64,000 bases of DNA from Anaerolineae bacterium (GTDB lineage Bacteria > Chloroflexota > Anaerolineae > UBA4142 > SHND01). Positions 58,047-61,070 of the stretch are shown in pieces. The notes under the pieces are model-generated. The model saw nothing but the letters and a program-made list of their open reading frames with translations. It ran no database searches and was not told where the DNA came from. A program made the translations under genes and the position numbers. The stretch is from assembly GCA_020851635.1 (NCBI GenBank), contig JADZCJ010000065.1:1-64000 (forward strand), given 5' to 3'. Each line of letters begins with the position of its first letter. Position 1 is the stretch's first letter.

Positions 58047-58343
58047 TTATCCTCCTGCCATGGCTCCGACCACCCAAAGCGGCTCGCTGCCGTTCGCGAC
58101 CGAATCAGGCAGCGGGTCATCCGTCGGGACGTGCGATAAATCCTGTCCACATGCAAAAAAACGGACAAAGGCGCGCCGCTGCAAGGTATTTTGGTCGCGG
58201 ATGGTCCCTTTGAGCATCGGATAGGTGTTTTCGAGGGAATCCAGGACCGTCCGGATGGTCACGGGCGCATTAACGGGCACCTGCACCTGACGCTCGGTAT
58301 TGGCGAGGCGGCGCAGATGCGTTGGGAGAATAACCCGAATCAT
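58047..58343 (-). CDS. MoaD/ThiS-like beta-grasp protein
   Basis: A 98-residue ubiquitin-like protein ([25 protein letters not shown]) ending in Gly-Gly, the tail that is adenylated and thiocarboxylated in MoaD and ThiS. It may be a sulfur carrier or, in view of its neighbour, a protein tag. Its ATG overlaps the stop of the BNR-repeat gene (ATGA, 58340-58343), so the two are translated together. No MoeB/ThiF activator is in the window. Confidence 0.88.
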
Positions 58344-59455
58344 GGAAGCGTTTGAACTTCGACCGACATGACGGATGGAAGATCACGCACAATGTCCTTC
58401 CAGCTATCGCCGGAATCCGCCGAGGCATATACCTGTCCGCCGGTCGTGCCAAAATAGATCCCGCACGGGTCAAGCGCATCCACCGCCAGCGCGGTCCTCA
58501 GCACATTCACGTAACAGTTTTTTTGCGGCAGCCCCCTGGTCAGCGCCTCCCACTCTTGTCCCCCCGACCGACTGCGATAGACGCGCAGCTTGCCTTCCGG
58601 CGGATAATGTTCCGAATCACTCTTGATGGGCACGACATAGATCGTGTTTGGCTCGTGCGCATGGACCGCAATCGGGAACCCGAAATCGCTCGGCAGGTTG
58701 CCGCTGACCTCATCCCACGAGTCGCCGCCGTTATCACTCCGCATCACATCCCAATGCTTTTGCATAAACAATACGTTCGGCTTGGAGGGATGCATCGCGA
58801 GATTATGCACACAATGCCCCACCTCGGCGTCGGGATCGGGAAGTTCATACTGCGATTTCAAGCCGTTGTTGATGGGACGCCACGATTCACCCCCATCATC
58901 GCTGCGGAACGCGCCAGCCGCCGAGATGGCGACAATGATGCGGTTGGCGTCTTGCGGGTCGAGCAGGATGGTGTGCAAGCACATGCCGCCCGCGCCGGGC
59001 TGCCACAACTCGCTTTTCACCTTGCGCAGCTCTGCCAGCTCTTGCCAGGATTGCCCGCCGTCCGAGGAACGAAAGAGCGCGGCATCTTCGACCCCGGCGT
59101 AGACCGTATCCGGATCTGTGAGCGAAGGTTTCAACTGCCAGACGCGCTTGAATTCCCAGGGATGCTGTGTGCCATCGTACCATTGGTGCGTCCCCGGGAT
59201 GCCTTCATAGGCGAATTTATTGCCCATCGTCTGCCAGGTTTTGCCACCGTCATCGGACCGTTGAATCAGCTGTCCGAACCAACCGGAGGACTGGGAAACG
59301 TAAAGCCGATTGGGGTCAACGGGTGAACCGCTAAAGTGGTAAATCTCCCATCCCGGAAAAATTGGCTCGCTCACCTTCCAGCGTTTACGCTTTTCGTCCG
59401 ATGTCAGAATAAAGGCGCCTTTGCGTGTGCCAACGAGAACCCGTACACCATTCAT
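58340..59455 (-). CDS. BNR/sialidase-like beta-propeller protein
   Basis: A 371-residue cytoplasmic propeller (no signal peptide) with Asp-box repeats ([45 protein letters not shown]) as in exo-alpha-sialidase or photosystem-assembly folds. Catalytic arginines and the nucleophile tyrosine of sialidases are not evident, so hydrolase activity is doubtful. The ATG at 59455 has a GAGGAG site; the frame's extension to 60187 is antisense to the transposase. It forms an operon with the MoaD-like gene. Confidence 0.88.
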
Positions 59456-59508: not shown

Positions 59509-59536
59509 ATAATAGAACAATTGTTCGATTTGTCAA
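59509..59536 (-). promoter_or_regulatory. promoter of the BNR-MoaD operon with embedded operator palindrome
   Basis: TTGACA (59536-59531), 16-base spacer, TATTAT (59514-59509) on the minus strand. The spacer contains a perfect 12-bp palindrome, GAACAATTGTTC (59515-59526), a likely repressor site. The IS element lies 10 bases upstream of the -35. Confidence 0.65.
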
Positions 59537-59539
59537 GAC

Positions 59540-59546
59540 CCAATTT
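59540..59546. repeat. target-site duplication, left copy
   Basis: CCAATTT directly abuts the left end of the IS. Further copies lie at 60816-60822 and 60971-60977. Confidence 0.65.
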
Positions 59547-59589
59547 CTGAGCTTCGGACATGAGTTCGGACAAGGAGTGAAATAACATA

Positions 59590-59649
59590 GAGCCTCTGAA
59601 TGCGGATACAATTGTTTTACCGAAACAAATCCCGCATCCGAGGAGGCTC
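59590..59649 (+). promoter_or_regulatory. ribosome-site-sequestering inverted repeat before the transposase
   Basis: GAGCCTC (59590-59596) and ATGCGG (59600-59605) can pair with CCGCAT (59632-59637) and GAGGCTC (59643-59649). The right arm covers the AGGAGG ribosome site. A TACAAT box at 59607-59612 lies inside, so a native transcript would lack the left arm. Confidence 0.6.
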
Positions 59650-59650
59650 C

Positions 59651-60808
59651 ATGCTTCAGTCTACCCAGATTTTCCGCTTTGCCCAAATGTTGTTTGACAC
59701 CGATGCTGTGGCACGCCAAGTCACACCCATTTTGAAAGCGATTCTCGACGCCCAGTCGGCACGCGTGAGCGAGATTGCACAGAAAATGCGCGGGACCCCC
59801 GCCGCCAATTACAAGCACCTGCAACGCGTTATGCAGAAAGTGGATGCCAAAGAAACCCTGTTGCGCTTGTTTCAAGCCGACGCCCCTTTTGTGCTCGGCG
59901 ATGTCACCGAACTGCCGCGCCCGCAAGCCTATCGCACGCCCTATGTCGGCAAACTCAAGGATGGCAAAACGCGCGGCTTTTGGCTCTTGCTTTTGGCGAC
60001 GCCCTATCGCGGGCGGGCGTTGCCGTGTCACTTTGTCACCTATTCCTCGCGCACCATTGCGCAGCAGGCCGACTCGCGTAACTTGAATCATCTGCAGGCC
60101 TTTCAGCAGGTCAAAGACTTGCTCGGCGAAAAACCCTTGGTCTTGGATCGCGAGTTCAGTTATCTGGAACTCCTCGAAAACTTGCATGCGGCACGGATCA
60201 ACTTTGTGATTCGGCTGAATTTAGGTTCGCATCCACCCCAATTTTTCGATGAAAACAAGCAACGCGTCGCCTTGCAGGTTGACCCGGGCGAAACCGTCGT
60301 CTATCGCAACCTGTGGTACAAAGGGACCGTGCGCGTCAACATCATTGGGTACTGGCAACACGGCTATGCCGAGCCGCTGTGGGTGATGACCAATCTCCCA
60401 GCCGAACTCGGCGGCCAAATCTATTTTGCGCGGATGAAGATTGAGGAGAGTTTCCGCGATCTGAAAAATCTGCTCCGCCTTGAAAAGGTGATGAACAAGC
60501 AGCAAGCCAAGATGGAGCAGGTGGTGGCATGGGTCTTGCTCGCGTTCACCCTGGGCTTCTTGGTCGGGGCGGAGTTGCGGGACGTGCTCTACGGACCAGC
60601 ACCCGACGCCACGCCCACTGCGCCGCGCGGTGCGCAGACCAAACCGCTCCCGCAGAAACCGGGGCAGAAATGGAAATTGTATTCCGGTCTCTTCATCTTG
60701 CTCAGACAAAAAGTCGCCCTGAGCGTGGCAGAAAGCCAACGCCTCCTGCGCCGTGTGCTTGACCGCTTCAAAACGATGGTGCACCATCCTGTCCGAACTT
60801 ATGTCTGA
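59651..60808 (+). CDS. IS4-family DDE transposase
   Basis: A 385-residue transposase. The catalytic triad is Asp84 (LGDVTEL), Asp166 (LVLDREFSY) and Glu265 within the Y-2-R-3-E-6-K signature of IS4 elements ([15 protein letters not shown]). The ATG at 59651 has an AGGAGG site. The last six codons lie in the right inverted repeat. The frame is complete, so the enzyme is probably active. Confidence 0.95.
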
Positions 60809-60823
60809 AGCTCAGCCAATTTG

Positions 60824-60970
60824 CTGAGCTTCGGACATGAGTTCGGACATTCGAAAAATCTCGCTATTTTCCGCATGCCTCCGAGGCGACCAATCGGGGC
60901 ACCTGACGCAACTTCGCACGGAAAATGTTGACCTCCTCGGGGCGTGTCCGAACTCATGTCCGTACTTCAG
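60824..60970. mobile_element. 147-bp MITE-like element with the same ends as the neighbouring IS
   Basis: Its left end (60824-60848) is identical to the IS left repeat, and its right end (60946-60970) is an inverted copy with two or three differences. The inner 97 bases are non-coding, with an ATTTTCCG/CGGAAAAT inverted pair, and are unlike the IS interior. CCAATTTG flanks it on both sides (60816-60823 and 60971-60978). Confidence 0.7.
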
Positions 60971-61070
60971 CCAATTTGCTCGCGGTTTACAGGCGTTGTA
61001 GTCTCCGCGAATCCGCCCGCCTGTCAAAGCAGACGCGCGCGCGATATTTTTAAGGTGAATAGAGAAAACA

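Follow-up and report, generated by a model that had tools for sequence, protein, structure and literature searches.

IS4-like elements in Chloroflexota probably choose insertion sites by promoter position and stack repeatedly at the same promoter

That transposons can find genes by way of the transcription machinery is well known, both from yeast and from a few bacterial Mutator-like elements. Among the latter, TnGBS, ISLre2 and part of ISKra4 (Mutator-like, p-MULT 3 and 4) insert upstream of sigmaA promoters, TnGBS at 15–17 bp from the -35 box, and the authors proposed a contact with RNA polymerase for these promoter-targeting elements, as set out in the available part of their paper (PMC3942029). 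In the IS4 family, the YREK subgroups make duplications of 7–13 bp, about one helix turn, and the available text of the IS4 review describes no promoter targeting, with 0 occurrences of the word 'promoter' (PMC2266710). No report of promoter-upstream targeting by an IS4-like element was found in the open-access literature, subscription journals lying mostly outside the search.

The window, the whole 64,000-nucleotide stretch of Anaerolineae DNA analysed here (contig JADZCJ010000065.1), carries two elements in tandem. An IS4-like insertion sequence (IS) of 1269 bp including its ends, defined by its terminal repeats and by a second genomic copy, occupies 59547–60815 on the plus strand. Next to it, at 60824–60970 on the plus strand, is a non-autonomous mini-element (MITE), defined by its terminal repeats and by relatives in other genomes. 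An initial annotation had described four alternating terminal repeats, three occurrences of CCAATTT at the junctions and a mini-element of 147 bp, and all of this was borne out. The ends are 26 bp long and run in the orientations +, -, +, -. The left repeats of the IS (59547–59572, plus strand) and of the mini-element (60824–60849, plus strand) have 0 mismatches to the 26-mer and are identical to each other at 26/26 bases, while the right repeats (60790–60815 and 60945–60970, both minus strand) have 2 and 3 mismatches, respectively. The right-end variant of the mini-element is closer to a relative's mini-element than to the right end of the window IS. Four such copies are not expected by chance, with 0 in 100 dinucleotide shuffles. 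The three junction sequences are CCAATTT on the promoter side (59540–59546), CCAATTTG between the IS and the mini-element (60816–60823) and CCAATTTG again on the far side (60971–60978), so that the window duplications measure 7 and 8 bp. The 147-bp element is short, has inverted repeats in common with an IS and is flanked by duplications, and it resembles the bacterial MITEs described in the available part of PMC10969869, which are likewise short, non-coding and intergenic, with IS-shared inverted repeats and duplications. Those MITEs, however, are described there as having an intergenic preference and internal promoters, and not a fixed distance outside a promoter. From the identical left ends it is plausible that the window transposase moves the mini-element, and either this transposase or a relative would have brought it to its present place.

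The single frame of the IS is open for 402 codons (59600–60808), and the transposase gene predicted from an internal ATG covers 385 of these (59651–60808, plus strand; ORF list, Pfam, NCBIfam and alignment), its stop codon lying inside the right terminal repeat. DDE_Tnp_1 was the sole Pfam domain (36.8 bits, cut-off 23). The NCBIfam model transpos_IS4_2 ('IS4 family transposase') matched at 64.7 bits, under its curated cut-off of 152, and the NCBIfam models named for transposase were IS4, IS701, IS1634 and ISH3 only. The Y(2)R(3)E(6)K motif is present (Y258, R261, E265, K272), and its spacing was kept in 5/5 aligned proteins. In one of them, the transposase of G036 (L082/L045), D stands in place of the catalytic E. 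The DDE spacing is 81 residues from D84 to D166 and 98 from D166 to E265, against published IS4 ranges of D(60–110)D(100–150)E in the available source, so that the second interval falls slightly below its range. Because the NCBIfam score lay below the cut-off, we call the element IS4-like and not an IS4 family member. With the IS4 family as described in the available text of PMC2266710, the window IS shares Y(2)R(3)E(6)K, a single frame, 5'-CT ends and duplications of 7–8 bp, and its ends and duplication length place it nearest the ISPepr1 subgroup; its relatives, in contrast to the 7–13 bp reported there for YREK subgroups, have mostly 6-bp duplications. Two structure predictions reached mean pLDDT values of 54 and 49, too uncertain for use, and a search of solved structures returned nothing meaningful.

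We then have to consider where else these elements occur. One further IS copy, C33:897-2165 at 88% identity, lies elsewhere in the window's genome, which spans 5.8 Mb in 144 contigs. The expectation of other copies of the 147-bp element failed in that genome, where its terminal repeats alone recurred, and held for mini-elements with the same ends, which are multi-copy in other Chloroflexota, where they measure about 141–168 bp and form families of dozens. As a query, the mini-element matched 7/99 related genomes (its own included), mostly through the terminal repeat. In G003, of the same genus, a 148-bp mini-element shares 102 identical positions with that of the window, and the similarity of its interior exceeded all 500 shuffles. 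A search of the genome collection for two facing ends gave 13 stretches, spread over 4 assemblies (Thermoflexia J88, 6; Ardenticatenales GLR113, 4; 'Chloroflexi isolate 22', 2; Ardenticatenales CSMAG_849, 1), and in a phylum sample 2/400 genomes had the pattern, one being the window's own. Local mini-elements used as queries gave 50 matches in J88 and 32 in GLR113, sometimes several per element. Among five genomes asked for a transposase relative (E up to 1e-6), G053 had one, and none was found in J88, GLR113, CSMAG_849 or G003; J88 and GLR113 are thus without one at this threshold and are the richest in mini-elements. Five other genomes of the genus gave no transposase relative at E 1e-40, and viral contigs held neither the mini-element nor a transposase relative. 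An empty site, which had also been proposed, did not turn up among the 6 genomes of the genus, the flank of the locus matching 1/6, its own. Beyond Chloroflexota, the Rhodothermus marinus plasmid NC_015970.1 carries a relic of a transposase of this family (about 29.2–29.9 kb; L199:1501–2142), which is frameshifted and not annotated, and TTGACA stands 8 bp away from the right end of the relic; no second R. marinus plasmid with the site of the relic was found apart from NC_015970.1 itself.

At the left end of the window IS, which is at 59547, a -35 box TTGACA (59531–59536, minus strand) lies at a distance of 10 bp and is followed after a spacer of 16 by a -10 box TATTAT (59509–59514, minus strand). 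This predicted promoter, about 54 bases ahead of the ATG, would serve the gene at 58340–59455 on the minus strand (BNR/Sortilin-Vps10-like repeats; ORF list and domain match). The mini-element of the window faces no promoter. Both the IS and the mini-element would have entered directly ahead of the -35 box that belongs to this one sigma70-type promoter. What the initial annotation missed is the apparent common target, a site immediately upstream of a promoter, which the family as a whole uses. We consider it likely that this IS4-like family picks its targets by promoter position, the element end usually 8–11 bp from the -35 box, and that the sequence of the duplicated bases does not guide it.

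The hypothesis came from the flanks of 21 elements, most of which face TTGACA-16 to 18-TATAAT about nine bases off. The test list comprised 85 non-redundant copies from 15 genomes, with 133 flanks of 70 bases. A flank was scored by a combined -35/-10 match of at least 9/12 consensus letters, at an offset of 7–13 from the element end and reading outward; the threshold of 9/12 was fixed after the first scores had been seen, and controls and shuffles used the same threshold. In J88, 40/138 first-look candidates were scored. The list omits 14/77 BLAST pieces from J88 and GLR113 (repeated flank or no readable end), the J88 copy L072:2289 and the contig-end pieces L052 and L056. Copies of G267 and R. 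marinus, found later, are outside it and were scored separately, and one extra right end at the G267 C58 locus is listed without being counted as a copy. Promoters were predicted with the E. coli consensus, and most of the genomes are metagenome assemblies.

By this E. coli consensus, 36/48 two-ended copies had a promoter at offset 7–13 on one side and 12/48 had none. The control offsets 14–20, 21–27 and 28–34 gave 0/48 each, and 200 dinucleotide shuffles of the same 48 copies gave a mean of 0.9 positives with a maximum of 4. Outside the elements on which the hypothesis had been formed, 21/26 two-ended copies in J88 and GLR113 were positive. Counted by flank, 52/133 were positive at offsets 7–13 (200 dinucleotide shuffles: mean 1.1, maximum 4). 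In the positive flanks, the -35 box lay at offset 8 in 7, 9 in 24, 10 in 13, 11 in 6 and 12 in 2, with 0–1 flanks at each other offset, and promoters pointing toward the element showed no offset peak. Either end may face the promoter (J88, 11 left and 15 right; GLR113, 9 left and 6 right). Duplications in the 48 two-ended copies measured 6 bp in 22, 5 bp in 9, 7 bp in 6 and 8 bp in 2, and none was found in 9. In 3/52 promoters a tRNA gene begins 8–13 bases past the -10 box. An open frame downstream did not discriminate, being present on the promoter side in 40/43 and on the other side in 27/31.

One may ask whether insertion is random or driven by AT content, and copies upstream of promoters merely survive through low harm. 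Mini-elements are usually intergenic, according to the available part of PMC10969869, and a gene is spared when the insertion falls upstream of its promoter. Survival would, however, leave a wide range of distances, where we saw offsets 8–12 and nothing in the control ranges. Random positions in the same loci were positive in 73/16,964 cases (0.4%), and even outside frames of 100 codons just 10/284 positions fit. We therefore regard survival after undirected insertion as extremely unlikely.

A stronger objection to promoter position as the guide is that the transposase itself might read a TTGACA-like motif beside the insertion point, with RNA polymerase uninvolved. The -35 hexamer is indeed the best-conserved feature beside the insertions, and it stands at a nearly constant distance from them, with a standard deviation of 0.99 vs 1.14 for the distance to the -10 box. 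Nevertheless, a -10 box (at least 4/6) occurred with 34/41 good -35 boxes (at least 5/6, offset 8–12), whereas a mere 75/925 TTGACA-like hexamers in the same loci, these promoters included, have one, and 21 flanks with a weak -35 box (4/6 or less) still had a good -10 box at the matching place. Such reading of the hexamer by the transposase is in our view unlikely. Since no sequence is preferred among the duplicated bases and the -35 box comes together with a -10 box, the promoter appears to be the target. RNA polymerase sitting on the promoter may guide the transposase, for example through region 4 of sigma or the alpha C-terminal domain.

Among the 13 copies that carry a transposase, counted if whole or if one end could be read, 9/13 were positive for a promoter: the window IS, G036, G601, G029, G080, G571, two in G267 and the R. 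marinus relic on NC_015970.1. The positives thus reach another class (G267) and another phylum (Rhodothermus marinus). C33, the other IS copy of the window's genome, had a promoter score of just 8/12, and on the visible ends of the ISs in G053, G639 and G551 no such promoter was found.

In 5 flanks, a further end of the repeat of this family lay at 7–8 bp from the element, which makes four junctions, namely the window, G053 C330 (with GTATGCTG duplicated), J88 C2 and GLR113 C163; at other offsets from 0 to 43, no same-repeat end with at least 16/26 matches was found. In GLR113, a second repeat family with the end GAGRGTGTNGAAAAAC lay 7–8 bp from the first family in 7 flanks. Neighbouring ends at 7–8 bp were never on the flank scored as the promoter side, which indicates that a new copy goes in on the promoter side of its older neighbour. 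According to the mechanism we propose, the family would insert at a fixed place by the promoter with duplication of 5–8 bp, the promoter would be left intact and the same site would stay open to repeated insertion, each newer copy settling between the promoter and the older copy. The tandem would then be explained by repeated insertion at an intact promoter, with the newest copy nearest to it. Because it is the IS that adjoins the promoter, the mini-element probably inserted first and the IS second; this order rests on the promoter rule, since the same repeats are expected from two insertions in either order.

Two other origins of the tandem deserve mention. The earlier proposal of two successive insertions into one duplicated target was supported, in that the spacer equals the outer duplications, but one version of it has the insertions fall by chance into a sequence-specific target, CCAATTTG, with no part for the promoter. 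The threefold CCAATTT(G) speaks for such specificity; among copies, however, the duplicated bases vary without consensus or information, and the similar tandem in G053 uses GTATGCTG, which makes a sequence-specific target scarcely credible. Alternatively, one event could have made the tandem, through a dimer, a circle junction or recombination between copies. Junction intermediates are known for other transposon families, and a right end, 8 bp and a left end in succession would resemble one. Yet the spacer is what two insertions predict, and the GLR113 neighbours at 7–8 bp include the family with different ends (7 flanks), which is impossible from one dimer, so that we judge a single event very unlikely and favour repeated insertion.

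Several further observations were made along the way. The family with GAGRGTGTNGAAAAAC ends, at 34 listed places in GLR113 (G660; L169–L198), stacks behind the first family, and 7/30 sampled ends lie 10–11 bp from TTGACA-like boxes. At L094 (J88) and L133 (GLR113), promoter-like sequences stand on both sides of the mini-element, as if it lay between divergent promoters. L162:343-518 (J88, C155) is a composite mini-element with two inverted ends of identical type, each facing a promoter-like sequence. The idea that the mini-element works through a conserved RNA fold found no support in the window, where the interior folds no better than its shuffles (z 0.02 and -0.40). In J88 and GLR113, mini-element interiors share strong hairpins (examples with z -3.54 and -2.58) that the window's mini-element does not have, and Rfam gave no match in 5 loci at E up to 0.1.

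Comparison with p-MULT 3 and 4, as described in the available part of PMC3942029, revealed both likeness and difference. Both groups are DDE elements that keep a set distance from the -35 box on its upstream side, and near-perfect inverted repeats go with insertion in both orientations in p-MULT 3 and 4 as in the IS4-like family. The distance to the -35 box is 13–17 bp in the former vs 8–12 in the latter, and the duplications are 8–9 bp vs mostly 6 (PMC3942029). The transposase is Mutator-like in p-MULT 3 and 4, whereas DDE_Tnp_1 is the only Pfam domain in the window transposase. Promoter-upstream targeting is hence known for unrelated transposons, and an IS4-like family that does so with another spacing is new as far as we found.

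Taken together, the ends, the duplications, the fixed distance and the stacking away from predicted promoters can be read directly from the DNA of these genomes. The -10 boxes that go with the -35 boxes suggest recognition of a functional promoter, in the simplest case with RNA polymerase on it; this last step we infer. A broader reading, to which we give an even chance, is that an IS4-like transposase clade in at least two phyla is guided by the holoenzyme independently of the Mutator-like elements, and that the same landing place serves its mini-elements and, in one host, a second repeat family unrelated to it, with the newest copy of each stack closest to the promoter. If true, this would be a second, unrelated bacterial transposase family with promoter guidance, which would then have evolved more than once, and comparison of both families would make the RNA polymerase contact testable. 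From the stacks one could read the relative ages of insertions at a single promoter, and the element ends would mark promoters in uncultured Chloroflexota for which there are no transcript data.
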